Source: a virus
Virus record (IMG/VR): IMGVR_UViG_3300035698_003858
Location: 1 to 54,409 of that record
Reading direction: 5' to 3' (one strand)
DNA: 54,409 nt
Shown: positions 1,117-26,082 of the stretch, piece after piece
Layout: every line of letters starts with the position of its first letter
Position numbering within the stretch: the first letter of the stretch is position 1
Translations under genes and position numbers: made by a program
Notes under the pieces: generated by a model
Told to the model about the DNA's origin: nothing
The model's database searches: none
The model's input: the letters and a program-made list of their open reading frames with translations, nothing else

Positions 1117-1418
1117 TATACTACTACTCTGGCTGTGGCTGCGGAATAGACATCGATGACGAGCGCATTGACGACTACTGCTATAAAGGCCCCAATGGTT
1201 ATGAGTTGAATGGGTATTGCTATCATTGCTCGTTAGAGTCTAATCTGCTATTTGATAACCGTGGTGCTGTTTTCTCTGCTGGTGCAGGTACTAACACATC
1301 TAAGGTCTACATACACAGTAGAACCCTACCGATCACAGGGGGGCCTAACTCTCATGCCACACCTATTGAAGGTCCCTCGGTAAGAGGACAGTACTGGGGA
1401 TTAACAGAGGTACGATGA
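1113..1418 (+). CDS. Small Cys-rich protein, member 2 of a tandem family
   Basis: 101 aa. The N-terminal YYYSGCGCGIDI carries C8 and C10, and YCYHC gives C36 and C39, with an extra C23. Together they make the CxC...CxxC arrangement of the cluster, likely a small zinc-binding fold. The C-terminus is low in charge and rich in G, T, S and P, without recognisable motifs. Start and stop overlap the neighbouring genes by the four-base ATGA. The role is unknown. Linkage to structural genes and late position suggest a small virion or assembly protein, but that is inference. Confidence 0.6.
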   Translation: MIYYYSGCGCGIDIDDERIDDYCYKGPNGYELNGYCYHCSLESNLLFDNRGAVFSAGAGTNTSKVYIHSRTLPITGGPNSHATPIEGPSVRGQYWGLTEVR

Positions 1419-1705
1419 TTAAGACGATCTGGGTTACCTACGAGTATTGTGGTTGTGATAGCGAGATCACCATAGAACAGTACAGGAAGTACAACGAAGG
1501 TAGTATCAAGATATACTACGTAGACGGAACAGGCTTTATCTTTGCAGGGCAGAGCTGTTATTTTTGCAAAAACGACCCACAACATTTATATGACCTTGTT
1601 AATCACCGGCTTAAAGAAGCTACTCGGACGAGAGAAGAACACGGATTCGATGCAGGACCAGCAGTCCCCCTCGTCTTCGACATCCCCGAAGGGACATCAT
1701 GGTAG
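1415..1705 (+). CDS. Small Cys-rich protein, member 3 of a tandem family
   Basis: 96 aa. IWVTYEYCGCDSEITIEQY holds C12 and C14, and SCYFC holds C48 and C51, the clearest example of the family pattern. The spacing suits a two-knuckle zinc-binding fold. The C-terminus is short and Pro-rich (AGPAVPLVFDIPEG). The gene overlaps the previous one by ATGA, and the likely start of the next gene lies inside it. The function is unknown. Confidence 0.6.
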   Translation: MIKTIWVTYEYCGCDSEITIEQYRKYNEGSIKIYYVDGTGFIFAGQSCYFCKNDPQHLYDLVNHRLKEATRTREEHGFDAGPAVPLVFDIPEGTSW

Positions 1706-2111
1706 GTACCTAAAGGCTTATGAGTGGATACAGTTCACGTCATGCGGCCATTCTTCTTTGGTAGCCACATCAGAGCTAGAAGACCATGACATAGAGTCTA
1801 TCACTACGATAGACGACGGAATAGCATTACCGTACTACTGTAGCTCTTGTGTGACCGATTTAAGGACAGATATACCAGAAGTGGTCCTATCTCACAATCA
1901 GCCCTACTTCCCTGGCCTAACAACCCCGGTAGACTTTTCCAACCTACAGTTGACGCGACAAGAAATAACGGAGCTACAAACTGCTGTAAACAACTCCACT
2001 CTACTGCGAGGCACCAAGTTTAACAACATTTCCATAACCAGATTTGGATCTGGGCTCCATATAGAGGTGTGCCCCAGTAGAACACTAACAAAAGTAACAA
2101 TCATAATATGA
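1650..2111 (+). CDS. Small Cys-rich protein, member 4 of a tandem family
   Basis: About 153 aa from the ATG at 1650. The frame is open further upstream (ATG at 1542), but family homology begins only at AYEWIQFTSCGH (residues 23-34) and no ATG, GTG or TTG lies closer than 1650, so 1650 is the best choice. It overlaps member 3 by 56 bases. C32, H34, C64 and C67 form the family motif, with His replacing the second Cys. The remaining C-terminal part is polar and unrecognised. The stop overlaps the next start by ATGA. Function unknown. Confidence 0.5.
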   Translation: MQDQQSPSSSTSPKGHHGRYLKAYEWIQFTSCGHSSLVATSELEDHDIESITTIDDGIALPYYCSSCVTDLRTDIPEVVLSHNQPYFPGLTTPVDFSNLQLTRQEITELQTAVNNSTLLRGTKFNNISITRFGSGLHIEVCPSRTLTKVTIII

Positions 2112-2599
2112 CTAACAGAAAATACTATACCTACCAAGACTGTGGCTGTGCCATAGAACTCACAGAGACCGAATTCGCAAAGGAGGCCTCAGTAGATGAC
2201 GACACTATCTATGGAGACTGTGCTGTCTGCGTTGACGAGACCAAGCAGCATGAGCCAGCAAACCCCTTTGATCACATCAGCGTGAGTGGGCTATATCAAC
2301 CAGGGGTCATACCCAATCACACGATGCAGGTACCTTGGTCACACCAGTATACGTATCCAGACCCTAACTCGAATATTATCATTAACGACACTACCTCGAC
2401 CCCTATTGATCATAACGCAATCTGGACGAACCACAACCATTCTATAACTAGTAGTCAAGGTAATCTCAGAGCTGGTGACTTCATTAGTATGGATGCTAAG
2501 GGTAAGCTCACCAACGTCACCGTTGATCAGCTCTCTGCGATGAATAAGCTTAATGCTGATGCCTCTCTTGGTAACTTTAAAGCTGACATTACCTTCTAG
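2108..2599 (+). CDS. Cys-rich protein, member 5 of a tandem family, longer C-terminus
   Basis: 163 aa. YYTYQDCGCAIELTETEF (C12, C14) and DCAVC (C38, C41) give the family motif. The remaining 120 residues are a polar extension rich in N, T, D and H, ending in a segment (RAGDFISMDAKGKLTNVTVDQL) that looks like a small beta-structured domain. This is the last of the five adjacent copies and is followed by the only gap in this part of the cluster. Function unknown. Confidence 0.6.
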   Translation: MTNRKYYTYQDCGCAIELTETEFAKEASVDDDTIYGDCAVCVDETKQHEPANPFDHISVSGLYQPGVIPNHTMQVPWSHQYTYPDPNSNIIINDTTSTPIDHNAIWTNHNHSITSSQGNLRAGDFISMDAKGKLTNVTVDQLSAMNKLNADASLGNFKADITF

Positions 2600-2659
2600 G
2601 ATTAATTTCGCCGCGTTTGCTTTACCCCTTAAAAGAAAACTCCTAAGTACGGAAAGGTT

Positions 2660-2692
2660 ATGGTAGACATTCTAAAGTACTGCACCGCATAA
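2660..2692 (+). CDS. Possible 10-codon leader peptide upstream of the next gene
   Basis: An ATG at 2660 with a good Shine-Dalgarno (GGAAAGG) opens a 10-codon frame, MVDILKYCTA, that stops four bases before the ATG at 2697. The next gene has no convincing ribosome site of its own. The short frame may feed ribosomes to it by reinitiation. Alternatively, it could be the true N-terminus joined by a +1 shift, since frame 2697 is open upstream to 2676. Neither is proven; it could also be chance. Confidence 0.3.
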   Translation: MVDILKYCTA

Positions 2693-2696
2693 AGAT

Positions 2697-3251
2697 ATGC
2701 TCATATTATACACCCACGCAACAGGAGAGGCCCTAACAGGCGTAGTAGGATCGATCCCTGATCGAACCCAGGCGTTCTCTACTACTTTCCTACTAGACTC
2801 CCTACCTCTAAGTAACATAGTTACTCCAGGAGAGGGGAGTGGTACCTTATGGGTATACTCAAAGCACTACTTCAATGTCTTTACGTTCGATGGCGCTACT
2901 GGAGCATCAGATGTTTCAATTTGTCTGTTATCAGCAGATTCGCCTGATCAAATCTATCTTGCTCCTGCTTTAACGCATGACGAAGGTATTACGGGTTCTC
3001 ACCATTATGGGGTTCAGACAGGTCTACCATGGACTGACACTGAACCTTCCTTCGTAAAAGGACAGGGGTGGGACAATAGTATTCTATTAACTAACGGATC
3101 CGGTGATCTAGGATCAGTAGTTGGGGTAGGCACTTCTTCTGGAGACCTCTTGGGCTTCTGGTTGGCAAGGCGCTTTACAGAGAACTATGAGTTCACTGGT
3201 CCAACAGGTACTGGTCATATTAACTTTGGGATCTCAGCACAACCATCCTAA
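2697..3251 (+). CDS. Hypothetical protein, beta-rich, virion-like
   Basis: 184 aa with few Lys, many G, S, T and aromatic residues and no signal peptide or membrane segment, as in many phage structural proteins with beta-sandwich folds. I recognise no family. The start is uncertain: there is little Shine-Dalgarno before 2697, while a well-placed one precedes the short frame at 2660. The gene stands between the Cys-motif cluster and a small zinc-ribbon protein. Confidence 0.55.
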   Translation: MLILYTHATGEALTGVVGSIPDRTQAFSTTFLLDSLPLSNIVTPGEGSGTLWVYSKHYFNVFTFDGATGASDVSICLLSADSPDQIYLAPALTHDEGITGSHHYGVQTGLPWTDTEPSFVKGQGWDNSILLTNGSGDLGSVVGVGTSSGDLLGFWLARRFTENYEFTGPTGTGHINFGISAQPS

Positions 3252-3267
3252 GCAAATGAAGAGAGTT

Positions 3268-3450
3268 ATGGCCAATGAACAGAAACTAGCAGTACTATGG
3301 AGGTGTGATAAGAAGGATTGTTTAAAGATCAACTACCGTACATTGCAACCTGGTAGTACAATAACAACAGATAGCTGTGACTCGTGTCACAGACATATAC
3401 GAGAACCAATCTGGGAAGAGGTTGGTCTCAAAGATAAAGATAAGAAATAG
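3268..3450 (+). CDS. Small zinc-ribbon protein
   Basis: 60 aa from the ATG at 3268 (MANEQKLAVLWRC); other in-frame ATGs lie at 3256 and 3187, and the last would overlap the preceding gene. C13 and C18, then C37 and C40 (CDSCHRH), form two Cys pairs about 18 residues apart, as in a single zinc-ribbon. The C-terminus is short and Lys-rich. Such proteins may bind nucleic acid or act as small structural modules; nothing here decides which. The stop abuts the next start directly. Confidence 0.5.
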   Translation: MANEQKLAVLWRCDKKDCLKINYRTLQPGSTITTDSCDSCHRHIREPIWEEVGLKDKDKK

Positions 3451-3849
3451 ATGGAAAGTTACGGAAACAAAATGGAAGATTCAAGATACTTAGTTCAGGA
3501 CGAAGCGTTACTGAAGGACACTAGCAGCTACCCTATTACGGACGCGTCTATCGTCTTGTCGCCTACGGCGACGGTACCGGACATCCTTACGGGGGGACAG
3601 CGTAAAAGAAAATTCGCAATGGTACTCTCAATGGCAGGACTGCCGGGGTTCCAGAAGCTAGAGGATCCGGTGATCCTGTCTTCATCGTTGCCAAAAGTCC
3701 TTATTGATGGGGATAGCATCGAGATTTTACGTTCGCGAGCTCATGCTGAGCTCGACGCAATGTTCAATGTGTTTGAAGACTCAACTAATGGCACACTCGA
3801 CATGACCATGCCTGACGAAAAGGAGCAAGTTGAAAGTGGAGAACGATAG
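3451..3849 (+). CDS. Hypothetical protein
   Basis: 132 aa, unrecognised. There is a second in-frame ATG at 3472 (MEDSRYL). The middle carries a basic GGQRKRKFAMVL patch. The C-terminus is acidic (TMPDEKEQVESGE). No membrane segments or catalytic motifs are seen. The end overlaps the next gene, whose AGGAG ribosome site lies inside this frame. Confidence 0.5.
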   Translation: MESYGNKMEDSRYLVQDEALLKDTSSYPITDASIVLSPTATVPDILTGGQRKRKFAMVLSMAGLPGFQKLEDPVILSSSLPKVLIDGDSIEILRSRAHAELDAMFNVFEDSTNGTLDMTMPDEKEQVESGER

Positions 3850-4195
3850 AAAGCTACAACAGAGACGAGACGCCATTGGTCAGTACATAACTCTACGCAA
3901 CGTAGGGACTGACAATGAATCGTTGTTCATTCGTTTCGACGAATTAGCAATGGACCTAATGCGTGTACCTCAGCTCAAGTTCTCCGTTAGTGCATTTGAA
4001 CACCACCTCATTAAAGAGGTGAACGACAAGGTCATGAACAGACCTATGACACAGGAGAGCTTCAACAGACTCTGTGATTATGTTTGGGACCTTGCTCTCT
4101 TCTGTACATCTGAAAGAAACAAAGATGAAAAACAAACAACTGGAATCTTGGAGGACCGCGCTCGAAGGAAGCGCGAGGGTCGTATTAGAAAGTAG
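3830..4195 (+). CDS. Hypothetical protein, TTG start
   Basis: About 121 aa. The start is the TTG at 3830, just after AAGGAG (3820-3825); an in-frame GTG at 3836 is an alternative with longer spacing. The protein is charged and helical-looking, with a basic C-terminus (EDRARRKREGRIRK) that could bind nucleic acid. It overlaps the previous gene by 20 bases and the next by about 70. No family recognised. Confidence 0.5.
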   Translation: MKVENDRKLQQRRDAIGQYITLRNVGTDNESLFIRFDELAMDLMRVPQLKFSVSAFEHHLIKEVNDKVMNRPMTQESFNRLCDYVWDLALFCTSERNKDEKQTTGILEDRARRKREGRIRK

Positions 4196-4361
4196 ATACC
4201 CAGATTACATGAGGACCTACTTTAGGTTTCGAGATCGTACAGGGCCGCAGTGCCCTTATTGTCTTGGTGTGCTAAAGAATCTTTATGTACGTGAGGTAGA
4301 ACGACTAAGAGGAGATTTCCTTAAGATGATAGAGACAGGAGACTGGTCTAACTATGAGTGA
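4125..4361 (+). CDS. Small protein with CPYC motif
   Basis: 78 aa from ATG 4125 (MKNKQLESW); an earlier in-frame ATG at 4074 would deepen the overlap with the preceding gene. The centre is basic and aromatic (MRTYFRFRDRTG), followed by CPYC at 43-46. With only two Cys it would need a partner or a dimer to hold zinc. A CxxC redox motif is an alternative, but no thioredoxin fold is apparent. It overlaps the next gene by eight bases. Confidence 0.5.
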   Translation: MKNKQLESWRTALEGSARVVLESRYPDYMRTYFRFRDRTGPQCPYCLGVLKNLYVREVERLRGDFLKMIETGDWSNYE

Positions 4362-5145
4362 TACACCAAACCCATTCGACCCCTTTGATATGCCTTCCCC
4401 AAAGAAGGCAGAGTCAAAGGAAGAGATAGAGACACCAGACAAGGAAGGTAACATTGTTCTGTCTGCGGACGCATCCAATCCCCTTGTGGCACATGCACAG
4501 GAAGCTGGTGTGTTCCTGACTAAGAACAGCATGGAGGTGCTGGACAAGTTCTATCACAGAGCTAAGTACGGCCACCAAGGGGCTATGCCCATGCGATGTA
4601 AGGCAGAGAAATGCCGGTTCATTAATATGTGCCCCCTTCATGAAGCAGGAGAGAAGCTACCCCTTAATAAGAGATGTCCAGTAGAGAGTGCTCTTGTTGA
4701 CATATGGGCTGGTAAGCTCATTGAATCACTAGAGATAGAGGTAGGCAACCCTGACTACGCAGTTGACCTAGACATGGTTTACGAACTCGCTGGCTTAGAG
4801 CTTATCAGAAACAGAGCTGCAGTTCACTTGTCTGACAACCCAGAGTTGTTCAACGAGAAGATCGTTGGATACTCCCCACAGGGTGACCCTATCTTCGATG
4901 ACAAGCCCAACCTTTCCCTCCTCATACTTGAGAAGTACGGAAAGAGAGTAGATAAGCTACGTGACCAGTTGCTTGCCACCAGGCATGCACAAGCCAAGCT
5001 CGGTAAGCTGGCTAGTGACAACTCAGTCCGTGCATCTAACATTAAAGAAAAAGCTCGCAAGATTGCAGAAGCCAGAAGGAGTGGAGACAAGCTAGTTGAT
5101 GCTGAATTCGAAGTGAAGGAACCAGAAGCAGAAGATGAATCGTAA
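4354..5145 (+). CDS. Cys-cluster protein, possible small-terminase role
   Basis: 263 aa. The N-terminus is acidic and Pro-rich. A four-Cys cluster (C82, C87, C93, C108) lies in the segment from MRCKAEKC to KRCPVE and could bind a metal or an Fe-S cluster. A long helical part follows, and the basic C-terminal half (KEKARKIAEARRSGDK) ends in an acidic tail. Proteins with this layout can be found near terminase genes, and a DNA-recognition or small-terminase role is possible. That is inference from position: there is no clear helix-turn-helix, and TerL is 5 kb downstream. It overlaps the nuclease gene by 11 bases. Confidence 0.5.
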   Translation: MSDTPNPFDPFDMPSPKKAESKEEIETPDKEGNIVLSADASNPLVAHAQEAGVFLTKNSMEVLDKFYHRAKYGHQGAMPMRCKAEKCRFINMCPLHEAGEKLPLNKRCPVESALVDIWAGKLIESLEIEVGNPDYAVDLDMVYELAGLELIRNRAAVHLSDNPELFNEKIVGYSPQGDPIFDDKPNLSLLILEKYGKRVDKLRDQLLATRHAQAKLGKLASDNSVRASNIKEKARKIAEARRSGDKLVDAEFEVKEPEAEDES

Positions 5146-6940
5146 GGCGTTTTATGACCTAGAAACAACAGGAGTCGGTAGAGGAGCTTTAGGTTCCTTG
5201 ACCGACCCTGTTGGTGTATACTCAGTTGGGTATCAGTTAGGTAACAACAAGCCAGTCGGTATGTTCGGCAAGACAGACTTACCTATGGAAGAGGGGGCAG
5301 CGCACATCGCAAAGATGAGCTCAAACGCCAGAGGGCTCGCTGCCACTACGATGACAGAAACTGCTATGCTCAAAGAGTTCGTATCCAACCTAAAGAGGGA
5401 TGGTGTCGATGAGCTAGTAGGATTCAACATACATAACTATGATTCTCCTCTATTGGTGAAGAGACTACGCCACTTGGGTCTATCTCATGAGGCAGACTAC
5501 GTGAACAGCGTTAAACACACAGATGTAATGCACATGGTCAAAAGCAAGATGGACCATGCTCTTTCTGGTTACAAAGGTAAGATCGATTGGAACTTCGGTG
5601 ACGAGATGTCCAAGGGGCTAAGCCTTGAGGCTATAGCCCGTGGCTTAGGTCTATCAACTGACACAGCACACGCAGCAGCTACAGACGTTAGTCTTACAAG
5701 GAAGGTGTACGACATCGCCAGTAATGGTGACGAATTCGCTAGACGATTTAATGCAGCTAACTGGGCTAAGGAAGTAGACGTAAGATCTGTGTCGGCCAAG
5801 CGTCGTCAATATAAACAGTCAGATATCTACACCCACGGAGACGCCCCCATAGACCCTGACGCGTACAGAGCCGTCATGTCGTCTGAGTCTATGCATAGCC
5901 AGGTTACGCAAGCACAGGCGCAAGGAGGAGTGGGCCCTAGGAGCTCCTACACAACAGCCTCTGCACCGTCACAAATGGCCGGGAATGATCTTCCTCTTTT
6001 AGGTGGTGACTGGGGCTCTCAGGGTACAGTCAAAGACCAAGCAGTACGTTTAGCTGACAAGCACGGCATCTCAATCAATGAGGCTACCGATATAGTCAAA
6101 AGCAACCTTAACAAAGGTAAAGACGAGATACTCAAAGGAATGGGTGACGTTGTCAGGAAAGGCAAGAGTGCAGGTAGCTTCATGCCACCTAAGCATGTAG
6201 CTGCAGTAGTTGGAGGTCTCATAGGTGGAGCATGGGTGCTAGACAAGGTGAGCTCAGACGACACACCCCTAGACGACGCTGATTTTATATCCGCTAGCCT
6301 TCTTGGTTCCAATCGTCGTGAGATCATGAAACTTGTGCAAGACACCGATGGTATACAGCATATGAACAAGGTAGTTGGCGAAAGAGCTACCTTTGGTGCT
6401 ATGAAAGCCGGTAAAGCTGTGCACAATCAGATAGAGCATGAGTTCTCTTCTTCAAGTGATTTTGTTGGTGCTGAGGTTGCAGTTTCTGATAAATATTTAG
6501 GAGTTAAGGGATTTGTTGATATTGTTACAAATGTTAACGGACAAGATGTTCCTATCGAAGTAAAAACAGTAGATGACGCGCGAATTGATGAGTTGCAAGG
6601 TCCTACGGAAAAACACAGAGCACAGGCTAATTTCTATGCTCACGCCCTTGGATCGGACCATGGCTACGTATTGTACGCCTCAAGAGACAACCCTAAGAAG
6701 AGAAAAGCCTTCCGTGTAACCTACGACCCTGGATCTTTGATGGCACAGGTACAAGAATTCAGAACTGCAGTCCATATGGCCGATTACTCGTCAGGTTGGA
6801 GAGCACCCCTGGACAGATTCTTCGGAAATAAATCAGGCACAAGAGACCAAACAAATCGTAATTATCTACACGGTCTTCCGCGCACAGAGCGCACAGAGAA
6901 TAATAGCTATGTAGGATCAAGATCCCTACCAAGGAACTAG
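5135..6940 (+). CDS. DEDDh exonuclease fused to PD-(D/E)XK nuclease
   Basis: 601 aa. Residues 1-195 are a DnaQ-like 3'-5' exonuclease: FYDLETTG (D8, E10), NYD (D103) and HAAATD (H179, D184, the HxxxxD signature). Residues about 215-350 are a polar linker. Residues 353-369 form a hydrophobic Gly/Ala/Val stretch, possibly a membrane segment or glycine zipper. Residues about 400-535 are a RecB/Cas4-like nuclease: GFVDIV (D462), IEVK (E475, K477) and QANFY (Q497, Y501). All catalytic residues needed by both families are visible. The fusion lies upstream of three membrane-like genes, not among replication genes. It may trim DNA during packaging or act on DNA as part of the virion; both are inference. 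Codons around 6430-6620 are more AT-rich than elsewhere. Confidence 0.85.
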   Translation: MNRKAFYDLETTGVGRGALGSLTDPVGVYSVGYQLGNNKPVGMFGKTDLPMEEGAAHIAKMSSNARGLAATTMTETAMLKEFVSNLKRDGVDELVGFNIHNYDSPLLVKRLRHLGLSHEADYVNSVKHTDVMHMVKSKMDHALSGYKGKIDWNFGDEMSKGLSLEAIARGLGLSTDTAHAAATDVSLTRKVYDIASNGDEFARRFNAANWAKEVDVRSVSAKRRQYKQSDIYTHGDAPIDPDAYRAVMSSESMHSQVTQAQAQGGVGPRSSYTTASAPSQMAGNDLPLLGGDWGSQGTVKDQAVRLADKHGISINEATDIVKSNLNKGKDEILKGMGDVVRKGKSAGSFMPPKHVAAVVGGLIGGAWVLDKVSSDDTPLDDADFISASLLGSNRREIMKLVQDTDGIQHMNKVVGERATFGAMKAGKAVHNQIEHEFSSSSDFVGAEVAVSDKYLGVKGFVDIVTNVNGQDVPIEVKTVDDARIDELQGPTEKHRAQANFYAHALGSDHGYVLYASRDNPKKRKAFRVTYDPGSLMAQVQEFRTAVHMADYSSGWRAPLDRFFGNKSGTRDQTNRNYLHGLPRTERTENNSYVGSRSLPRN

Positions 6941-6942
6941 TC

Positions 6943-7431
6943 ATGAATCTATCGAAATTTGCAAAAGGATTTGGAGAAAGCTTAGCCAGCGGACCAGTTG
7001 GTCGTAGCTTCATGCCCGGTCCTCTGGAGCTGTTCCAACAGGAGCAACGAGGTAAGCTTACGAGATTCTTAGGCGACAAGGCAGTTGTAGGCTCAAGCTC
7101 TAGCCCAGGCCTGATGGACAGTTACTTCTCTGGCAGAAACATGACTATGTCCAAAGGGGAGATTGGTTTTTCTGAGACAAGCGAAAGACTAGCCAAGCAC
7201 AGGAAGAGAGGTGCCATGATCGGTGGTGGCCTCTTAGCGGCCAACACCTTGGGGCTAAACCCTTTTGGTGCTACAAGCGGTGCTAACAACTTAGCTACCC
7301 TGGGTATGCATGCAACAGTAGGCTCTACTATGTACGGAATGGGTGGAGGTGCCAGAATGGCAGGCATGGGATATATGGCAGCCGGGGCATTTAATACATT
7401 CCGTTCAGGTAACAACCCAGGACCTATGTAA
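6943..7431 (+). CDS. Gly/Met-rich membrane-like protein
   Basis: 162 aa. The first half is soluble, with an amphipathic start (MNLSKFAKGFGESLA). After a basic AKHRKRG comes a hydrophobic Gly-rich second half (residues about 89-157: MIGGGLLAANTLG, MYGMGGGARMAGMGYMAAG) typical of glycine-zipper membrane segments. It is first of three similar small genes after the nuclease fusion and couples to the next by TAATG. No family recognised. A virion protein that enters or forms a channel in the host membrane is one possible role. Confidence 0.6.
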   Translation: MNLSKFAKGFGESLASGPVGRSFMPGPLELFQQEQRGKLTRFLGDKAVVGSSSSPGLMDSYFSGRNMTMSKGEIGFSETSERLAKHRKRGAMIGGGLLAANTLGLNPFGATSGANNLATLGMHATVGSTMYGMGGGARMAGMGYMAAGAFNTFRSGNNPGPM

Positions 7432-8207
7432 TGGTAGTCGGTGTAATAGCAGCAGGCCTAGGAATGGGTGTCCTAGGAAAAGTAGGAGCTAGGGGAGCAG
7501 CCAGTTTAGCTAACAAGGTTATGAGGTCTGGCTACAGAGCTGGGTCCACTGCTTATGCTTCTGGTGCAAAAGCATTCCCACGAGTTGTCCCTATGGCTAG
7601 AAGAGCAGCAATAGGTGGAGGTATGATTGCAGCCTCTGCAGGTGCACTAAATGCTATAGCGCCTATGGTGGATGAAAGATTCCTCTCTAAGCATGGAGAC
7701 ACAGAAGAGAACAGACAGTACCTAGCTGATAGGTCTGGAGTAAGAAAGGCAGCATTCTTTGGTGCACCACTAGCTGCGGCAGGTGGAGCCCTAGGTGCTG
7801 CAGGACTAATGAAGCTTGGAGTTAAAGGAGCAGGAGCTGTAGCTGGACGTGCCATTAATGCCCTACCGATTGAAGCTGGTGTCGCAGGAACAGAAGCAGC
7901 CTTCAGATTCGGCAAAGGAGTGAACCCTTTTGCAGGAGCACCTGCGGCTGTCAAGAAAGGCCTGATGATTGGAGCTAACTCGTTCAATCCTGCCACAGCA
8001 CGTGGTGCTTTTGCTTATGGAGGCGCAGCAGGTGTAGCAGCAGGAATAGGGGGAGCAGCTGCCACGTCCACTAGTGGCTACGGAAGAGAGGGGCAGATAA
8101 CTGGAATCTCATCCTCAAGGGGTGGAGGTATATCGCCTGAGCTACAATTCTCAACACAAGGCTTAACTCTTGGTCTACACAGTACACGTAAAAGGAGAGT
8201 AGTCTAA
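7431..8207 (+). CDS. Gly/Ala-rich multi-segment membrane-like protein
   Basis: 258 aa, extremely rich in Gly and Ala. Candidate hydrophobic segments lie near residues 2-18, 61-78, 107-128 and 199-212, separated by basic stretches. The C-terminus is soluble and distinctive (ELQFSTQGLTLGLHS then RKRRVV). It has no enzyme motif. It may be a minor virion protein that inserts into membranes, or a capsid-internal protein; the sequence cannot separate these. It overlaps both neighbours by TAATG. Confidence 0.6.
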   Translation: MVVGVIAAGLGMGVLGKVGARGAASLANKVMRSGYRAGSTAYASGAKAFPRVVPMARRAAIGGGMIAASAGALNAIAPMVDERFLSKHGDTEENRQYLADRSGVRKAAFFGAPLAAAGGALGAAGLMKLGVKGAGAVAGRAINALPIEAGVAGTEAAFRFGKGVNPFAGAPAAVKKGLMIGANSFNPATARGAFAYGGAAGVAAGIGGAAATSTSGYGREGQITGISSSRGGGISPELQFSTQGLTLGLHSTRKRRVV

Positions 8208-8773
8208 TGGAAATGGACTATCAACAACTAGATGGTGGTGACGAGAGGTTGCACGACAACCTCTTCTCTAACCCATTCAGATCTATTGCTATGGAGTTCG
8301 GAGGCTATGCAGTTGGTTCTGGCGTCCAAAACATGGGGAACAAAAGCTTCAAGACTGCTCTTGATGCGGGAAAGGCTGCTAGCTCTAAAGGTACAGGAGG
8401 ATTAGCTGGTTGGCTAGAAGACCCCTCTCGCAATAAAATGGCAAGAGGACTGGCCAGTAGAGACATGAAAAGAGCACAGGGGGTAATGAATTTTGGTAAA
8501 TCGATTAAACGTTTTGGCCATGTGTTTGGCCTCATCGGTTTAGCACAGATTGCTTTCGAAGTATCTTCATCGGTACTTGGGGCATCTCAGTCATTCGCAA
8601 CATCTAAGAGCGACGTTGAGGCTATGCGATATAGCAAGATGTACGATCAAGATGCTTACTATGACACGAGAGCAGCTTATACGCAGAGACAAAGAGCTTT
8701 GCAGGTAATACACAATTCTAGACTCTCTCTTAAGCCTGCACTGGGCAACGAGTCTGGATTTTTACACTCTTAG
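8207..8773 (+). CDS. Membrane-like small protein, third of a set
   Basis: 188 aa. Weakly hydrophobic segments occur near residues 26-40 (FGGYAVGSGVQNMG) and 105-125 (HVFGLIGLAQIAFEVSSSVLG), between basic parts (SRDMKRAQG). The C-terminus is Arg/His/Asn-rich and ends in ALGNESGFLHS. Gene order and composition group it with the two preceding genes, although I see no direct repeat among them. Function unknown. Confidence 0.55.
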   Translation: MEMDYQQLDGGDERLHDNLFSNPFRSIAMEFGGYAVGSGVQNMGNKSFKTALDAGKAASSKGTGGLAGWLEDPSRNKMARGLASRDMKRAQGVMNFGKSIKRFGHVFGLIGLAQIAFEVSSSVLGASQSFATSKSDVEAMRYSKMYDQDAYYDTRAAYTQRQRALQVIHNSRLSLKPALGNESGFLHS

Positions 8774-9179: not shown

Positions 9180-10208
9180 ATGACAATAAGAAACATAGAG
9201 AAAGAGGTTACTAAGATGATTAAGGACGGCTATGGCCGTCGTAGAATCGCTAAAGCATTTGGCATAACAGAGTGGGCAGCAAGGCATCTAATGCATGATG
9301 TTGTCAACCAAGTTACCGATCTTTCTGATAAAAAAGCTAAAAGATCCAAACCAAGACCCAGAGTTGGGAAGGCATCTGATCTTTCTGTGGTGGAACGCAA
9401 GAGGACAAAGAAGACACAAGTCAAGATCACTGCTGAGGTTAAAACCAGTGACGTGAGAACTAGACTAGAGACAAGACCTACCTCTATGAAAGTAGCGGTA
9501 ATCAGCGATATACACTATCCCTACGAGGATAAGCAGTGCATTAAGCTCACCAAGGCCTACCTGAAGGACTACAATCCAGACATGATTGTCATGAATGGTG
9601 ACATAGCTGACTGTTACTCGGTCAGTAGGTATGAAAAGAACATGAAAGGTCGTCTTGACCTACAAGGCGAACTGGATTACACAGAGGATAGACTTTGGGA
9701 ATGGGTCGAAGAATTCCCTGACACAGAGTTTAAGTATCTCGAAGGTAATCACGAAGAGAGACTCAAGAAGTATCTAGCTGCAAATGCTGCTAGCTTGCTC
9801 TCTATGAGGGGTTTAGACTTCCCAGAGAGGGTAAACCTTGAAGAGATGGGCATAGAATGGATCCCCGTGCATAAGGATATGCAAATCGGGGATCTTTTGT
9901 TTACACATGGACACTATGCACGGAAACATGCAGGAGCCTCTGCAAGAGGACACTTTGAGAGTTATGGATGCAGTCTTTTGATAGGACATGTGCACCGTCT
10001 CTCTATAGGGTGGAAACGGAACAAACAAGGCCATCATGCTATGATTGAGAACGGGACTCTCTGCGATTTCGACGTAGAGTACCTCAAGTTCCCAGACTGG
10101 CAACACGGCTTTACGACCATCGACTTTGATGGCGATGACTTCGCACCAAGCCAACACGCAATCATAGACTATAAGCTGATTGCTGACGGCAAGGTGTACA
10201 CAGTGTAA
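9180..10208 (+). CDS. Calcineurin-like metallophosphoesterase with N-terminal HTH
   Basis: 342 aa. Residues about 15-40 form a helix-turn-helix (YGRRRIAKAFGITEWAARHL). A basic linker (45-80) follows, then a metallophosphoesterase domain with all its motifs: SDIH (D109, H111), NGD (about 139), GNHE (about 189), THGH (about 241) and GHVH (about 268). The family hydrolyses phosphodiester bonds with two metal ions; members include nucleases and nucleotide phosphatases. Its stop overlaps the TerL start, so the two are probably co-translated. The DNA-binding head suggests an action on DNA, possibly at packaging ends, but that is inference. The 58 bases upstream hold a TATACT (9149-9154) without a convincing -35. 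Confidence 0.85.
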   Translation: MTIRNIEKEVTKMIKDGYGRRRIAKAFGITEWAARHLMHDVVNQVTDLSDKKAKRSKPRPRVGKASDLSVVERKRTKKTQVKITAEVKTSDVRTRLETRPTSMKVAVISDIHYPYEDKQCIKLTKAYLKDYNPDMIVMNGDIADCYSVSRYEKNMKGRLDLQGELDYTEDRLWEWVEEFPDTEFKYLEGNHEERLKKYLAANAASLLSMRGLDFPERVNLEEMGIEWIPVHKDMQIGDLLFTHGHYARKHAGASARGHFESYGCSLLIGHVHRLSIGWKRNKQGHHAMIENGTLCDFDVEYLKFPDWQHGFTTIDFDGDDFAPSQHAIIDYKLIADGKVYTV

Positions 10209-12175
10209 TGAGCGACAAGACTGAACCAACGATTGAGGAGGCTGCCGAAAGGCGGCTTCTTAAGTATAAGCCTGAGAGGGACTATAAAGCCAGGAACTAC
10301 AAGAAATTTGGTGGTCCTTGGTCTGATTTATGCAAACAGTGTAAACATTACTATGCCGATATACACGATAATGGTTTGACGCGCAAGGAGTTCCCTCCAA
10401 AATGTCATGGACATATCGTGGACGAGACAGCAGGCTTACTGCCTTCTGACTTCGAATCCGAAGAACAGTTCAATGAGGTTTTGATTCTCTCTGATCCTGT
10501 TGCCTGGGCTTTTAGTAAGTTCCCAGATGACAGTGGAGCAGGATGGGCAGCTCGCTGGTATCAAGAAGAAATTATGTCATGCACTGCCTTGAAGAAGGTT
10601 GTACGAGCAGGTAGACGAACGGGTAAAACCGAAGCTATCTGTGTCATAATGCTCTGGATGACTCAAGTTAACTCAAACTTCACAGTACTAGTCATTGCGC
10701 CATTCGAAGCACAGGTAAACCTGATCTGGGATAAGATCATGGGCTTCGTAAACAAGAGTCCAGAGATCCAATCTACAATCAAACAAAACAAGCGCTCCTC
10801 TGAACATCTTCTCTCATTTAATAACGGCTCTAAAATCCTTGGTTTCTCGTCTGGCCCCTCATCTGCTGCCAGATCTGATAAGATTCGTGGTCAGGACGCT
10901 CATTACATCGTACTCGATGAGGCCGATTATCTAGCCGACGACGACATCGAAGCCATCCTTGCCATTCTTGCGTCACACCCCGACTGCGGCATGTGGGCCT
11001 CTTCCACTCCCAAGGGTACTCACAACAAGTTCTACCAATTCTGTGTTCAGAAAGACCTAGGCTTCAAGGAGTTCCACTACCTATCCTCCGAATCTCCATC
11101 ATGGAACGATGACGCTGAGGAGTTCTTCCGTACCTCTTACGACTCCACTACTTTCGAGCACGAATTCCTTGCTGAGTTCGGTATCCAAGAAGCTGGTGTA
11201 TTCCGAAACGACCTTATTGATATAGCTCTACTGGACTACGACATGCCTAGACCTAAGACCGGTCCAGGTACAAGGGTCATTATCGGTGTTGACTGGAACG
11301 GACAGAACATCGGTACACACATCGCTGTAGTAGAGGCCACTCACTCATCGCAAGGTATCAAGTATGTCTTGCTTGAGAAGAAGATAATCAAGGGTGTCGA
11401 GTTTACACAGACTGAATCTGTGAAAGCCATCATTGACTTGAACTTCAAGTATGACTCAGACTTTATCTACGTTGACCATGGCTATGGTGAGACACAAGTA
11501 GAGATGCTACAGAAGTATGGGAAGGATAGACCTGGTTCTAGAATGCATAAGAAAGTCAAAGCATTTGCTATGGGTGGTAAGGTTGACATTATTGACCCGA
11601 TTACCAACCAAGAGATCAAGAAGGACGCTAAGCCTTTCATGGTCAACACCTGCGTAAGGGCCCTTGAACAAGGCATGCTTGTTCTTCCTTACGCGGAAGA
11701 CACGCAGGTTCTTGTTGCTTCTGCTGAAGACGCAGACCTTGGTAAGCAAGCTGGTATCGTACAACAGATGCGTAACTTTGCTGTAGAAAGAGTATCAGAC
11801 ACAGGTCGTACTACGTACTCTCAGGGCGAAGAGCATACACTCACTGCATACATGCTAGCAGTAACAGGTTTCGCATTAGAGTTCTCTGATATGAGAAGGT
11901 CTAGCATACCAATTGGCTTCCAACATATACGGAAGATGAACGAAGACGGGACAGCAGTAGCCAAAGACAAGGTCAACGAAGAGATAGCTAGTGTCGTAAG
12001 GCAGCTAGACGCAGGAGAGACTTCGTCTTCAGGGATCGGTGGCAAACTGACGTCAGGCAAAGCAAAGAAGGCATACATCGTAAAGAGCATCTCTAAAGGT
12101 GACCCCGCTACGATGCGTAGCTACTTCCGTTCTGGAGGCAGAGGCCTAGGTGGAGACGGAGGACGAGGCTTCTAA
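10208..12175 (+). CDS. terL: Terminase large subunit (TerL)
   Basis: 655 aa, the packaging motor and DNA-cutting enzyme. The ATPase domain shows a Walker A motif RAGRRTGKT (residues about 132-140), Walker B IVLDEAD (about 235-241) and the coupling motif SSTPKG (about 266-271). The RNase H-fold nuclease shows GVDWNG (about 360) and YVDHGYGE (about 421), with a later acidic/His segment GEEHTLTAY. An N-terminal extension has a Cys/His group (CKQCKHYY, KCHGH) that may bind zinc and is not a core part of the family. The C-terminus is Gly/Arg-rich. It overlaps both neighbours by TAATG. Confidence 0.95.
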   Translation: MSDKTEPTIEEAAERRLLKYKPERDYKARNYKKFGGPWSDLCKQCKHYYADIHDNGLTRKEFPPKCHGHIVDETAGLLPSDFESEEQFNEVLILSDPVAWAFSKFPDDSGAGWAARWYQEEIMSCTALKKVVRAGRRTGKTEAICVIMLWMTQVNSNFTVLVIAPFEAQVNLIWDKIMGFVNKSPEIQSTIKQNKRSSEHLLSFNNGSKILGFSSGPSSAARSDKIRGQDAHYIVLDEADYLADDDIEAILAILASHPDCGMWASSTPKGTHNKFYQFCVQKDLGFKEFHYLSSESPSWNDDAEEFFRTSYDSTTFEHEFLAEFGIQEAGVFRNDLIDIALLDYDMPRPKTGPGTRVIIGVDWNGQNIGTHIAVVEATHSSQGIKYVLLEKKIIKGVEFTQTESVKAIIDLNFKYDSDFIYVDHGYGETQVEMLQKYGKDRPGSRMHKKVKAFAMGGKVDIIDPITNQEIKKDAKPFMVNTCVRALEQGMLVLPYAEDTQVLVASAEDADLGKQAGIVQQMRNFAVERVSDTGRTTYSQGEEHTLTAYMLAVTGFALEFSDMRRSSIPIGFQHIRKMNEDGTAVAKDKVNEEIASVVRQLDAGETSSSGIGGKLTSGKAKKAYIVKSISKGDPATMRSYFRSGGRGLGGDGGRGF

Positions 12176-14150: not shown

Positions 14151-16352
14151 ATGGGTCTTACCGACAGAATAAAGAAAGCACTGGGCATAGACGACATGAC
14201 TGCAAGAGTCCAGAAGGAGTTGCAGGACATCAAGTTGTCCGTAGGTAACGTTGCTACCACCCAGCAAGAACTAGCAGCTACGATTAAGAATAAGCGTAGA
14301 ACACTAGCGAAGCCATTGATGTACTCTAATCCAGTTTCATCTGGTGCATTAGATAGGTCTAACAATAGGGTCTATCATGGTCCTATGTATGATCTAGCAG
14401 AGATAGCAAGGATCATGGACATAGAAGCTTATGTCAATCAGTCCATTAGAAAGCACAGAGAGCAGATCCTCAAAGAAGGTTACTTCATCACTGGAGAAGA
14501 TGAAGAAATGGTTGACTACGTTAAGAAGCGTATCTTTGAAATGGAACTCGCTTCTGGCTACATATTTGAAGAGATCGTTAGAGATTTTGCTACCAGCCTA
14601 ATCGCTTACGGTACATCTATCTTGGTTCTAAAGCGTGATCCTGACAAGAGTACAGGATCCAAAATAAAGCTTTACGGCAAGAAGCTAGACCCCATTGCCG
14701 CTGTATATCACATGGACCCTACGTCTGTGTCGGTTAAGTTGAATGACTTTGGTCACCCAACGAGGTGGAGACAGAAGATTGAGAACTCAGCAAGTAATGC
14801 TACGGAAAAATATTTCCCTAACTCAGAGATCATAGCTGCAACGGTAGATAGAAAGCCAGGCTTTGTTTTCGGCACACCTTACATTCTTCCTGTAATAGAC
14901 GATGTACGTGCTCTACGTAAACTAGAAGAGCTTGCAGAACTTATCGCACGTAAGTTTGCCTTCCCCTCGGTCCACTGGAAAGTAGGAGACGAGAAGAACC
15001 CACCTGAGATCTTCGAAGATGGTGTTACGGAAATTGACGTAGTAAGGGCAGAGATAGAGAACCTTACTCCTCAGGGCGGTATGGTAACCTCCTATAGGGT
15101 GGACCATGATGTCGTAGCATCCCAAGATGGAATGCTGGACCTTAAGCCACTTATCGAATATTACGAAGCTCGTGTTCTCGGTGGCCTAAGACTAAGCCCC
15201 GTAGACCTAGGACGTGGAGACGTATCCAAAGCCAGTGCTGGAGCCTCCTCCAAGTCCCTCAGAGACTCCTCACGAGACTTCCAGGCAATCATTGAGTCTA
15301 AGCTCACATACGAGCTGATCCTTCCTCTGCTCCTTGAAGGAGGCTTTGACGTCAAGCACGACACCATGGTCAAGTTCAAGTTCCCAATGATCGATAGCGA
15401 AGAAGAGAGAGCCAACCAGCAGCATGGTGCAGACATGTTCAATAGCTCTGTCATCTCACGTACAGAGTTTCGTAGAGAATTCCTTGGCAAGAAAGAGCTT
15501 ACCGATGAAGAGAATGCTGACACAAAGGATGCACTCACTCATGAGCAAGCTATGGAGCAGACTAAGCTTGCTGGTCAAATCTCAGCAGCCAGTAAGGCTG
15601 CCTCCTCCACAGGAGGTAGCTCTGGTGACTCATCTAAGAGAGCTATTCAGAACAAAGTTCGACCTAAGAATCAGAATGGCCAGAAGGCAGCAAAGACTGC
15701 CATCACAGCCAACAACAACCTGCAAGACCAGAAGGAGCTATACAAGCTCTCTATCAATCGCAGCCTAGGTGACATTCGTAACGAGATGTCTCATCACGCT
15801 AAGACCGAAGGATCTAGTCCTGACTTCAAAGATACTATAGATTTTGCTGTCAGTGAGAATGCTAGCATCATAGAAAGCGCAATCAAGATAGGAGTAGAAG
15901 ATGCTCTTAGCCAGATGGGTCTTGATGAAAGTTACTCGATCCCAAAGAGGAGTGTTGATAGGTTTTCTAAGAACTATGTACGAAAAAGTATAGTCAGCCT
16001 CTTAGACGGTACGAGCAACTGGGTAAACAAGAATGCTAAGGATCATGACGACTTCAAGGTCTCAGCTATGCTAGAGCAGTTTGATAACGACCTCGAATAC
16101 CTACTGGATAAGCAGATAGATATATCTTACAGATTCGGATTCGTTAGAGCTCTGAGATGGCAAGGCGTAGAAAATGTCGATTTTATTCCTATTGAGGACG
16201 AAACCTGTCATGACTGCCTCAAGCAGGGCCCTAAGCGTGTATCGCTCACAGAAAGAGATATGCCATACAACTATCTACTGAGTACTCATAGTGATTGTGT
16301 CTTCAATATGGAACTACCCATAGACAGAGGCGGCGGTAAATTTAATGAGTAG
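14151..16352 (+). CDS. Portal protein with MuF-like C-terminus
   Basis: 733 aa. The dodecameric portal forms the DNA channel at one capsid vertex. The N-terminal two thirds fit the family: a helical start, the IEAYVNQSIRKHREQILKEG segment, GTPYILPVIDDVRALRKLEELAE (long stem-helix region), and the ARVLGGLRLSPVDLGRG region with its SSKSLRDSSRDF follow-on. After a low-complexity linker (about 475-520, rich in S, A, K and Q) a second domain ends with CHDC (about residues 686-689) and STHSDCVFN, which resembles the C-terminal zinc-type motif of MuF / SPP1 gp7-like head proteins. So portal and minor head protein appear fused. Confidence 0.85.
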   Translation: MGLTDRIKKALGIDDMTARVQKELQDIKLSVGNVATTQQELAATIKNKRRTLAKPLMYSNPVSSGALDRSNNRVYHGPMYDLAEIARIMDIEAYVNQSIRKHREQILKEGYFITGEDEEMVDYVKKRIFEMELASGYIFEEIVRDFATSLIAYGTSILVLKRDPDKSTGSKIKLYGKKLDPIAAVYHMDPTSVSVKLNDFGHPTRWRQKIENSASNATEKYFPNSEIIAATVDRKPGFVFGTPYILPVIDDVRALRKLEELAELIARKFAFPSVHWKVGDEKNPPEIFEDGVTEIDVVRAEIENLTPQGGMVTSYRVDHDVVASQDGMLDLKPLIEYYEARVLGGLRLSPVDLGRGDVSKASAGASSKSLRDSSRDFQAIIESKLTYELILPLLLEGGFDVKHDTMVKFKFPMIDSEEERANQQHGADMFNSSVISRTEFRREFLGKKELTDEENADTKDALTHEQAMEQTKLAGQISAASKAASSTGGSSGDSSKRAIQNKVRPKNQNGQKAAKTAITANNNLQDQKELYKLSINRSLGDIRNEMSHHAKTEGSSPDFKDTIDFAVSENASIIESAIKIGVEDALSQMGLDESYSIPKRSVDRFSKNYVRKSIVSLLDGTSNWVNKNAKDHDDFKVSAMLEQFDNDLEYLLDKQIDISYRFGFVRALRWQGVENVDFIPIEDETCHDCLKQGPKRVSLTERDMPYNYLLSTHSDCVFNMELPIDRGGGKFNE

Positions 16353-19063: not shown

Positions 19064-20503
19064 ATGAAATCATTTGAATTAACTCCTAGCGAACTTGAAG
19101 TCTTTGACGAGAAGCAACGTGAAATCGTTCTGCGTCTCCAAGAAGGCATGAAAGCTGTCGCAGATAGAGCAGTTGACCAAGCAGTCTCTGCCGCTCGTGA
19201 AGAGTTCGGTAAAGACACGACTCTAGAAGGGCTCATCCCTCTAGACAAACGCGCTAAAGCGCATATGCAAGATTCGGCTAAAGTCCAGAAGATCGCCCAA
19301 GTTTGGAAAAACAACGGTGTGGTTCCTGGAACTGACAGACGTATCAGCTACGACGACCTAGCTACGATGGATCGGAAGTACTCCGAAGGCATCGTCACTA
19401 ATGACAACTTCTCAACCGATCACCCTAACCTGATTCCTCGGGCTATTAGTGAGATCGTGAAAGAGGCTATTGAGCCTAACGTTGTTCTTACAGGTCTACT
19501 CCAGCGTATTAATTACTCTCACGGTACTCAACTAACCTTCCCGGCAGTCGGCGCTATCACAGCAGCTGACATCCCTGAAGGCGGCGAATACCCAGAGCGT
19601 AGTCTAGAATTCGCTGGTCAGGTAGTCGCAACCATCGGTAAGTCCGGTGTAGCCATTAAGATGACAGAAGAGATGATTCGTTATTCTCTGTTTGACATCA
19701 TGGGCATGCATCTACGGGCCGCTGGTCGTGCTATGATCCGTTGGAAGGAGCACAAGGTTGCCGATATGATTATCGACAACGCTGATGGTACAAACACTCT
19801 GTTTGACAACACCAGCACCTCTTACTCCTCAACGACTGGTCGTGACTCAGCTGGTGCCTACAATGGTACCATGACTCTGACTGACTTGCATAAGGCTTAC
19901 GCCGCAATGATAACGAGAGGCTTCACGCCTAACACCCTTCTAATGAACCCATTCGCATGGGAACTGTTTGCCGACGAGGCACTACAGCGTGCGTTCGGAT
20001 TCCAGAATGGTGCTGCAATGTGGAACGCTCACAAAGGTGGACCTGGTAACGCTCCTGAATGGAGCAACGGTGGATTCGGAAACGGTCTACTCCAGAACAC
20101 AACTGTGACTGCTCCTCAGAACATTGCCACTACTTTCACTGACGTACCGGGCATGTTCCCTTATCCGTTCAGAATCGTAGTGACTCCTTACATGCCTTAT
20201 AACTCTACTCTGAACACAACGGACCTGATCCTTTGTGACTCAAGTGAGCTCGGTGTGCTAGTAGTAGACGAGGACATCATGGTCGATAGCTGGTCAGACC
20301 CAGCCCGTGACATCCACAAAGTGAAACTACGTGAACGTTATGGTCTCGGAAGCATGAACGAAGGTAAAGGATCCGGTGTGATTAAAGGCGTCAGCCTCAA
20401 CCGTAGCTTCGACTTCGCTAGCAAGCTTGAGCCTGCAACGGTAACCCTTTCTAACCTACTAACTGGTGATGCAGATAACACTAGCATCGTCGGCCAAGTA
20501 TAA
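19064..20503 (+). CDS. Major capsid protein
   Basis: 479 aa. The gene order (protease, decoration, capsid) and the sequence fit an HK97-fold capsid protein. There is an N-terminal helical part (residues 1-90) that may act in assembly and be removed by the protease, and a body with LTFPAVGAITAADIPEGGEYPERSLEFAGQ, IKMTEEMIRYSLFDIMGMHLRAAGRAM and MTLTDLHKAYAAMI. The spine-helix plus NTLLMNPFAWELF pattern is typical of the family. A very strong ribosome site, AAAGGAGATATACA, precedes the ATG, as expected for the most abundant virion protein. A terminator follows 30 bases after the stop. Confidence 0.85.
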   Translation: MKSFELTPSELEVFDEKQREIVLRLQEGMKAVADRAVDQAVSAAREEFGKDTTLEGLIPLDKRAKAHMQDSAKVQKIAQVWKNNGVVPGTDRRISYDDLATMDRKYSEGIVTNDNFSTDHPNLIPRAISEIVKEAIEPNVVLTGLLQRINYSHGTQLTFPAVGAITAADIPEGGEYPERSLEFAGQVVATIGKSGVAIKMTEEMIRYSLFDIMGMHLRAAGRAMIRWKEHKVADMIIDNADGTNTLFDNTSTSYSSTTGRDSAGAYNGTMTLTDLHKAYAAMITRGFTPNTLLMNPFAWELFADEALQRAFGFQNGAAMWNAHKGGPGNAPEWSNGGFGNGLLQNTTVTAPQNIATTFTDVPGMFPYPFRIVVTPYMPYNSTLNTTDLILCDSSELGVLVVDEDIMVDSWSDPARDIHKVKLRERYGLGSMNEGKGSGVIKGVSLNRSFDFASKLEPATVTLSNLLTGDADNTSIVGQV

Positions 20504-24516: not shown

Positions 24517-26082
24517 ATGGCATTTGACTCTTTACCGGCCTTAACGGTCACCCTAAATGACTTGGGGTTGAAGATTGCACCGCCACCAGCCGGGCCTAAA
24601 GTTACTATTCTAGGGGTCACCTCAAACTCATCGATTCCGGTGAGAGACCCTTTTCAAGTAACTAACGTAGGCCAGGCAGCTTCCTCACTATACTTCTCTG
24701 GCGCAAGCGGAAACACCTACCCAGGTGAACTCGCTCTTGCTCTAGAAGAGGCTATAGGTGGGGGGGCTAACGCCGTAGAGATCGTAGTTATTGGGCACTA
24801 TTCAGGTGCTCAACTAGAAGACTACATCTCTCCTAAAGGAACTGGCATGCTACAACGCTACGCTGATCTTGACCTCGCATATGATGTGATCAAGAACACC
24901 GAACTTGACGTTGTAGTCCCTGTCGGAGCCTGGGCTGACGCCACTGGTGTAACTGGATCGTTCGCGAACCAGCTTGCAAACTTCTGCTACCAAGCAACTT
25001 CTGAATTTGACAACACATGCCTTGGCGTGATAGGCAATATGCCTGTACTCACCTGGGCATATGCATGGAAAGAAACTCTTCTAACCACTTCTTTAAGTGG
25101 TGAGATAGCTGCATTCTATGGTCAACTCGACGAACCAAGTAATAAAAACTCGACTGGAAATATGATGTTTGGAATTCCGTCTCTCTCCCTTGTGGACGAG
25201 TGGACGAATTACGCTTCACAACAAGACGACGACGGAACTTCTGTCGCCCCATATGTTGCAGACACCAACGCATCATTCCCTACGATCTACTCTAACTTCC
25301 TCAAAGGCTCTACAGATACTGCTGGTGTTTTCTATCCTGAAAATGCTGACAACCTAGCTGACAGTGTCAATAGTTCTTATTGGACCAGCTGGCAAGCAAC
25401 CGATTCACTCGGTGCTTTAACAACAGACCAGAAAGGAAACAGAGTTGACGCAGGGCGTAGACTATGCATTATCGCATCGCCTATGATTACTGCTAACAAC
25501 CAGACGCGAGATCTTGCACGCGGTGTATTCGCTCCTTTGAGCAACACTGTGTACAATACTGATGGAGCCGCAGCTTATGCTGGTTTCATGAATACACTAA
25601 TACCTCACTCCTCAACGACTAACAAGGTCGTTGCTAACCTCAAGGCAAGACGTCCGCTTTCTGCAAAGCAAGCGAACAAACTAGCCGCTCGTAGGTTGAC
25701 AACGTTCATGAACAAGCGTGCAGGCCATACGGTAGCTAGTGGAGTGACCGGAGCTCACAACGTATCTAAGTACGTACGTTCCGATTTTGTTCGACTTTCG
25801 ACTATGCGCATCGTTGATGCTGCTCTTCAGGCAATCAAAGCTGTTGCAGAACCCTTCCTGGGTGAGGCTAACAGTGCAGTAAACCGTAACGCCATGCAGG
25901 CTGAGATCGACAGAGTTCTCTTCCGTATGCGTGAAGCTGGTGCACTGAACGACTACGAGTTCTTCGTAGCCGCAACTCCTGATCAGCAAGTCCTCGGTGA
26001 AGTTGAAATCGATTTAACCTTGGTACCAGCCTTCGAGATCACTAAGATTTCGCAGTCAGTATCACTAGCTAAAACACTTTAA
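24517..26082 (+). CDS. Contractile tail sheath protein
   Basis: 521 aa, forming the contractile sheath around the tail tube. The N-terminus (GPKVTILGVTSNSSIPVRDPFQV) and the C-terminal domain (VDAALQAIKAVAEPFLGEAN ... DYEFFVAATPDQQVLGEVEIDLTLVPAFEI) fit the conserved Phage_sheath fold, whose C-terminal domain joins neighbouring subunits. A CGGAGATAAGG ribosome site precedes the ATG. The tube gene follows 11 bases after the stop, the classic sheath-tube order. Confidence 0.9.
   Translation: MAFDSLPALTVTLNDLGLKIAPPPAGPKVTILGVTSNSSIPVRDPFQVTNVGQAASSLYFSGASGNTYPGELALALEEAIGGGANAVEIVVIGHYSGAQLEDYISPKGTGMLQRYADLDLAYDVIKNTELDVVVPVGAWADATGVTGSFANQLANFCYQATSEFDNTCLGVIGNMPVLTWAYAWKETLLTTSLSGEIAAFYGQLDEPSNKNSTGNMMFGIPSLSLVDEWTNYASQQDDDGTSVAPYVADTNASFPTIYSNFLKGSTDTAGVFYPENADNLADSVNSSYWTSWQATDSLGALTTDQKGNRVDAGRRLCIIASPMITANNQTRDLARGVFAPLSNTVYNTDGAAAYAGFMNTLIPHSSTTNKVVANLKARRPLSAKQANKLAARRLTTFMNKRAGHTVASGVTGAHNVSKYVRSDFVRLSTMRIVDAALQAIKAVAEPFLGEANSAVNRNAMQAEIDRVLFRMREAGALNDYEFFVAATPDQQVLGEVEIDLTLVPAFEITKISQSVSLAKTL

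Follow-up and report, generated by a model that had tools for sequence, protein, structure and literature searches.

A predicted two-nuclease protein in an exchangeable enzyme slot upstream of the terminase of 0305phi8-36/ME3-like phages, a possible virion cargo

The gene at positions 5135 to 6940 of the 54,409-nucleotide IMG/VR virus record IMGVR_UViG_3300035698_003858, a 54-kb stretch analysed whole and called the window here, encodes a protein that, judged by its sequence, joins two nuclease folds with intact active sites. We refer to it as the slot protein. Related loci that have the gene place it between a cysteine-cluster (Cys-cluster) gene and glycine-rich (Gly-rich) hydrophobic genes, just upstream of the terminase, and its enzymes are swapped or dropped while the position is kept, as would be expected of interchangeable enzyme cargo. 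On balance, we lean toward the view that this gene supplies the enzymes of a conserved late cassette upstream of the terminase and that the cassette proteins are packaged and delivered with the DNA.

The complete DEDDh exonuclease that an earlier note, made from the sequence alone, had read in the N-terminal part (D8, E10, D103, H179, D184) is borne out by Pfam, by profile matches and by residue conservation in 11 homologues. RNase_H_2 and DNA_pol_B_exo1 both exceed the Pfam gathering score in this domain, and a profile of the 11 slot exonuclease domains matches the solved TREX1-homologous exonuclease 9mrc (E value 1.6e-13) and also Cas2-DEDDh. The three Exo motifs of DEDDh 3'-5' exonucleases (D-x-E, D and H-x4-D) are present, with D8, E10, D103 and D184 invariant among the 11 domains and H179 kept in at least 90% of them. 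The complete PD-(D/E)XK nuclease of the same note (D462, E475, K477, Q497, Y501) stands equally well. The C-terminal domain matches phrog_1706 in PHROGs (4e-18) and Cas4 in PADLOC (7e-12), its profile finds the Cas4 structure 4r5q in the PDB (6e-6), and Pfam PDDEXK_1 is below threshold. It has the Cas4/RecB-like pattern D-xn-(D/E)-x-K followed by QxxxY, with D462, K477 and Q497 invariant and E475 and Y501 nearly so in 10 homologues. Structure prediction, which the note had proposed as a check on the folds, supports this second nuclease: a Foldseek search with the model of the slot protein matched the Cas4-like SSO0001 (5.7e-6) and MGME1 (1.6e-5). The model has a mean predicted local distance difference test score (pLDDT) of 52, with much of both domains at 60-87 and a disordered linker. 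Since the ten named residues are invariant or nearly so in relatives, we take them to be real.

The slot protein shares folds and catalytic residues with PD-(D/E)XK enzymes of the Cas4, MGME1 and RecB type and with DEDDh enzymes of the TREX1 and DnaQ type. The window fusion differs from them in lying outside CRISPR, without Cas1 or Cas2, and in having its domains joined in one protein by a hydrophobic linker. The genes around it are virion genes, with no Cas1 or Cas2 among them; it is thus not Cas4 proper, and a CRISPR-like adaptation pair of DEDDh and Cas4 was likewise rejected on gene context.

When the slot protein of the window was used as the only query, IMG/VR yielded no relative. Relatives were therefore gathered through three terminase alignments, which gave about 200 loci, many of them redundant; slot counts refer to 69 non-redundant loci with an intact interval from the Cys-cluster gene to the last of the three Gly-rich genes (proteins A, B and C), L046 and L047 being near-duplicates. 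A slot nuclease was detected in 27 of the 69: 26 by an automatic count, plus L011, which that count missed and where the start of the gene overlaps its neighbour. In every related locus found, the slot enzymes are located in the virion and packaging module, and the exonuclease, PD-(D/E)XK and staphylococcal nuclease (SNase) domains of the cassette lie 0.01-2.3 kb before the protein C gene wherever they were found. Proximity to the terminase is partly built into this sample, because the loci were collected through the terminase. A control independent of it, a scan seeded with the nuclease alignment, returned five cassette loci (one of them on a new contig, L091) and five standalone exonucleases of 205-256 amino acids without a second domain; in a genome collection, the same alignment produced a single marginal match, a standalone protein matched in the exonuclease part only. 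In neither the terminase-derived loci nor the nuclease-seeded scan was a DEDDh and PD-(D/E)XK fusion ever found in a replication cluster. The earlier note would have counted as a refutation absence from particles together with occurrence of the fusion only in replication clusters of relatives, and the result goes against the genomic half of that condition: the fusion was found only in cassettes. The note was also accurate about the surroundings: a Cys-cluster gene precedes the nuclease gene, three Gly-rich hydrophobic genes follow it, and the terminase large subunit (TerL) gene begins at 10208. Searches of phage collections with the slot proteins of L047 (a large SNase) and L091 (a long PD-(D/E)XK) found no match, and no description of the slot family was found in the literature searched, which covered papers available without subscription.

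The content of the slot is modular. The DEDDh and PD-(D/E)XK pair of the window recurs in L007, L009, L028 and L091, and DEDDh without a second nuclease is found in L011, L108 and gp11 of the Acinetobacter phage ME3, the last in the same slot and with a terminal hydrophobic segment. An SNase domain, often together with DEDDh but also without a recognised DEDDh domain, occupies L019, L036, L038, L047, L106, L109, L117, L127, L174, L189 and L206, where it stands in place of PD-(D/E)XK, as well as L134, L175 and others. PD-(D/E)XK without a recognised DEDDh domain is found in L021, L146, L150 and L155. Kinase-like domains, under the Pfam cut-off and in several cases with HxDxxxxN and Dx[G] motifs, are found in L113, L118, L133, L138 and L038, and in L113 the kinase-like domain accompanies PD-(D/E)XK. 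L134 is also among the slot proteins with protein-kinase-like domains or kinase motifs. DUF4406 is found in L159; nothing was recognised in other loci, and L018, L172 and L183 encode short slot proteins without a detected enzyme domain. A D-x-E exonuclease motif stands at the start of 5 of the 16 slot proteins without a DEDDh call, as against 4 of 916 other long open reading frames (ORFs). The replacement of one nuclease fold by an unrelated one in a fixed slot fits cargo, and it can be argued from the same swap that DNA degradation itself is selected.

The slot protein appears to have a small constant part, made up of a Gly-rich hydrophobic helix and a C-terminal tail that differs between clades. 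Different lineages attach different nucleases to this part, which may target the protein to assembly or to the particle. The helix is modelled at low confidence (pLDDT 31-38), and the hydrophobic segment of the window protein is credible because a segment between the domains recurs in most relatives. In L011, the PD-(D/E)XK domain is cleanly missing between helix and tail, and the tail SGTRDQ...GSR is kept, being detected at an E value of 4e-4 by a hidden Markov model (HMM) built from three tail sequences. L015 keeps the same tail though no nuclease was detected. A looser RDQ tail motif occurs in 13 of 29 slot proteins, with several enzyme contents, versus 21 of 3958 other ORFs, and the Fisher value of 6e-21 is only indicative because the motif was defined with the data already in view.

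We present a hypothetical model in which late expression, packaging, membrane insertion, delivery and the target of the cassette proteins are all inferred. The proteins would be made late in infection, loaded into the particle via their conserved tails and delivered together with the DNA. In this model the host membrane would take up the helical Gly-rich proteins, partners of the slot protein, while at the point of entry the two nucleases would break down DNA, be it chromosomal, plasmid or that of a competing phage. The earlier note had suggested a virion-associated enzyme acting on host DNA, and that suggestion is supported in part, by inference from the virion and packaging-module position in every related locus. 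More tentatively, the conserved tails found on the slot protein and on proteins A, B and C may serve as signals for loading into a virion compartment or ejection apparatus not yet described in 0305phi8-36/ME3-like phages. Through it, nucleases, kinase-like proteins and other exchangeable enzymes would enter the host cell on a membrane-inserting scaffold; we regard this broader proposal as possible but rather doubtful.

Several observations weigh against delivery from the virion. The hydrophobic stretch at residues 353-369, to which the earlier note had drawn attention, does not stand out statistically within the window protein (its best 17-mer has a mean of 1.48, versus a composition-shuffled 95th percentile of 1.63). 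The tail of the slot protein varies by clade, with no single universal motif, and the model of protein C has no significant fold match to any solved ejection protein. The record of the Bacillus phage KLEB27-3 labels the Gly-rich genes hypothetical and other genes structural; if those labels are based on mass spectrometry, then the cassette escaped detection there. No particle proteomics of the cassette was found in the literature available without subscription.

The same KLEB27-3 labels would suit an unpackaged, membrane-tethered late enzyme, with the cassette inserted in the producing cell's membrane, where the nuclease would degrade host or superinfecting DNA, as would the Gly-rich hydrophobic segments of the cassette proteins and the long helices of the all-helical protein C model. 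We nevertheless consider this unlikely, given that the gene lies strictly within the virion module beside terminase and portal, that the conserved tails resemble assembly contacts, and that the phage's own DNA would have to be spared in the producing cell. The short enzyme-free slot proteins and the tail of L015 could indicate instead a structural or assembly protein in which helix and tail are essential and the enzymes are optional additions that act on phage DNA, for instance by removing non-packaged or damaged ends in the particle. Several lineages lack a clear homologue of the constant part, however, and the catalytic residues are strongly conserved where present, which makes such a role very improbable. 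Least probable of all is an ordinary replication or recombination nuclease that has drifted beside structural genes. Genes for replication and recombination typically encode folds of both kinds, and a separate Cas4-like nuclease does reside in the replication clusters of Streptomyces and Eggerthella phages, but in every locus found with both domains they are in the cassette, and the slot keeps a nuclease across swaps of unrelated folds and keeps its tail upon domain loss.

A role in packaging, with the nucleases trimming or cutting concatemers or ends together with the terminase, has the closeness of the gene to TerL in its favour, and also a peculiarity of TerL itself. The TerL nuclease motif of the window clade is EHTLTAYML versus DEHALDALML in other clades (EHTLTA versus DEHALDA in the core), a clade-wide change of Asp to Thr. 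The change is also present in L014, which has no slot nuclease, whereas L091 and L113 combine PD-(D/E)XK with an unchanged Asp. The idea that PD-(D/E)XK makes up for a defective terminase nuclease was rejected, the TerL change following clade and not slot content. Most related loci lack a recognised slot nuclease and share the same terminase neighbourhood, which argues against an essential packaging role and makes concatemer processing unlikely; the kinase-like and DUF4406 contents are also ill-suited to trimming. We therefore consider a packaging factor improbable, and the action on concatemers that the earlier note had offered as an alternative is not supported.

There is a precedent for packaging-module cargo. 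MuF polymorphic toxins of temperate phages are encoded by packaging-module genes, more than half of the putative toxins are nucleases, and delivery in the particle has been proposed (PMC5576092). The window slot shares with them a packaging-module gene near terminase and portal and interchangeable enzymatic domains. It differs in its constant part, a hydrophobic helix and C-terminal tail, and in having a Gly-rich partner gene set and no identified immunity gene. Membership of the MuF family was rejected, as Pfam scans of the window protein and the tested relatives found no MuF domain. Polyvalent proteins of phages and conjugative elements combine several enzymatic domains in one polypeptide and are inferred to be injected with DNA (PMC5512222); the terms SNase and DEDD are absent from the main text of that paper. 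Disparate enzymatic domains in one virion-context protein (DEDDh with PD-(D/E)XK, DEDDh with SNase, and the L113 combination) are a shared feature, whereas here there is one slot in one phage lineage with conserved partner genes and tails. ME3 gp11/gp12 and KLEB27-3 gp5-gp9 are also among the closest known systems, since their cassettes lie at the same place upstream of TerL. The second nuclease is missing from ME3, no slot nuclease was recognised in KLEB27-3, and the annotations in both cassettes are hypothetical or putative membrane protein, except for the ME3 Cys-cluster gene. Internal proteins ejected with the genome include T4 Alt, the N4 virion RNA polymerase and the ejection proteins of T7 and P22, some of which form membrane channels. 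The logic of delivery with DNA would be the same for the cassette, but protein C has no fold match to a solved ejection protein, and its assignment as a known one was rejected on that comparison.

The neighbouring genes are listed with the other features of the window in Table 1. The cassette is probably one operon, because its genes overlap or abut (5135/5145, 6940/6943, 7431, 8207); promoter-like and terminator-like patterns in the cassette region gave no count above shuffles. The Cys-cluster HMM has 117 matches in the related loci, and the homologue of this protein in 0305phi8-36 is p112. In ME3, the cysteines of this protein (L004:4078-5373) are separated by an intein (Pfam Intein_splicing 3e-17), a hint that the site is essential; the ME3 record annotates the gene as an RNA methyltransferase. 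Upstream, at 1113-4361, small genes whose products have paired Cys motifs follow one another, and several of these genes are conserved upstream of the cassette in L007, L009, L011, L014 and L015. ORFs with the protein B tail lie just upstream of the protein C gene in 78 of 78 cases, and the protein C tail (consensus FVDTQQAYTMRQRALQAIHNSQLNARSALGNEASFLH) lies within 14 amino acids of the C-terminus in 155 of 155 ORFs. In L037 (6302-9919), a 1205-amino-acid protein includes protein C, with the protein C tail at its extreme end.

Table 1. Predicted features of the slot protein, the cassette and the virion module in the window
Feature	Coordinates	Strand	Basis
Cys-cluster protein, directly upstream of the nuclease gene, 11-bp overlap	4354..5145	+	ME3 gp9 3e-11, KLEB27-3 gp5 4e-10
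Slot protein, 601 amino acids: DEDDh exonuclease, hydrophobic segment, PD-(D/E)XK nuclease, conserved tail	5135..6940	+	
DEDDh exonuclease domain, residues 4-197	5144..5725	+	HMM domain bounds, profile match to solved exonucleases
Gly-rich hydrophobic helix, residues 353-374	6191..6256	+	model helix; equivalent segment in relatives; weak in window sequence alone
PD-(D/E)XK nuclease domain, Cas4/MGME1-like, residues 384-546	6284..6772	+	
C-terminal tail, residues 562-601, SGTRDQxNR...GSR	6818..6937	+	kept in relatives without PD-(D/E)XK
Gly-rich protein A, tail FNTFRSGxNxGPM	6943..7431	+	tail HMM: 33 ORFs, C-terminal in all
Gly-rich protein B, tail ...STQGLTLGLH..R	7431..8207	+	tail HMM: 87 ORFs, C-terminal in 87/87
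Gly-rich protein C, tail TxRQRAxQxIHxSxLxxRxxLGNE	8207..8773	+	tail HMM, all-helical model
Small protein, one N-terminal hydrophobic segment	8783..9121	+	similar gene at same position in L009, L015
Metallophosphoesterase	9180..10208	+	Pfam Metallophos 4e-9; phrog_221 6e-47
Terminase large subunit	10208..12175	+	phrog_2 4e-37; 35% identity to Moorella phage MTATph1
Portal protein	14151..16352	+	phrog_9232 9e-42; ME3 portal homologue
Major capsid protein	19064..20503	+	homologues in MTATph1, KLEB27-3, ME3
Tail sheath protein	24517..26082	+	homologues in MTATph1, KLEB27-3

By its gene content, the window can be assigned to the virion module of a 0305phi8-36/ME3-like long-tailed myophage. Its recognisable genes are all on the plus strand and are collinear with MTATph1, KLEB27-3 and ME3 across terminase, portal, protease, capsid, sheath, tube proteins, tape measure and hub. 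The lineage of the Bacillus phage 0305phi8-36, of which ME3 is a distant relative (PMC5000817), has been described (PMC2147016, PMC5000817), and mass spectrometry assigned 55 virion protein genes to 0305phi8-36 itself (PMC2147016). Two large proteins of 1434 and 1781 amino acids occupy the tape-measure region (29368-39017); homologues in the named relatives were recognised for the first but not for the second. An SNase domain lies within the baseplate hub homologues of ME3 (L004:37999-44988) and MTATph1 (L005:37880-44557), unlike the window hub (39019-46041), where none was seen; an SNase in the hub of this lineage was already noted for BtI1 (PMC2147016).

The slot proteins point to a family of enzymes that are probably delivered by the virion, in a little-understood lineage of phages with an unusually complex virion. 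The cassette can be located by the sequence tags at the ends of its proteins, and a cultivated phage, ME3, is available for a test through gp11/gp12. As unrelated nuclease folds interchange in one slot, what large phages may inject besides DNA becomes testable.
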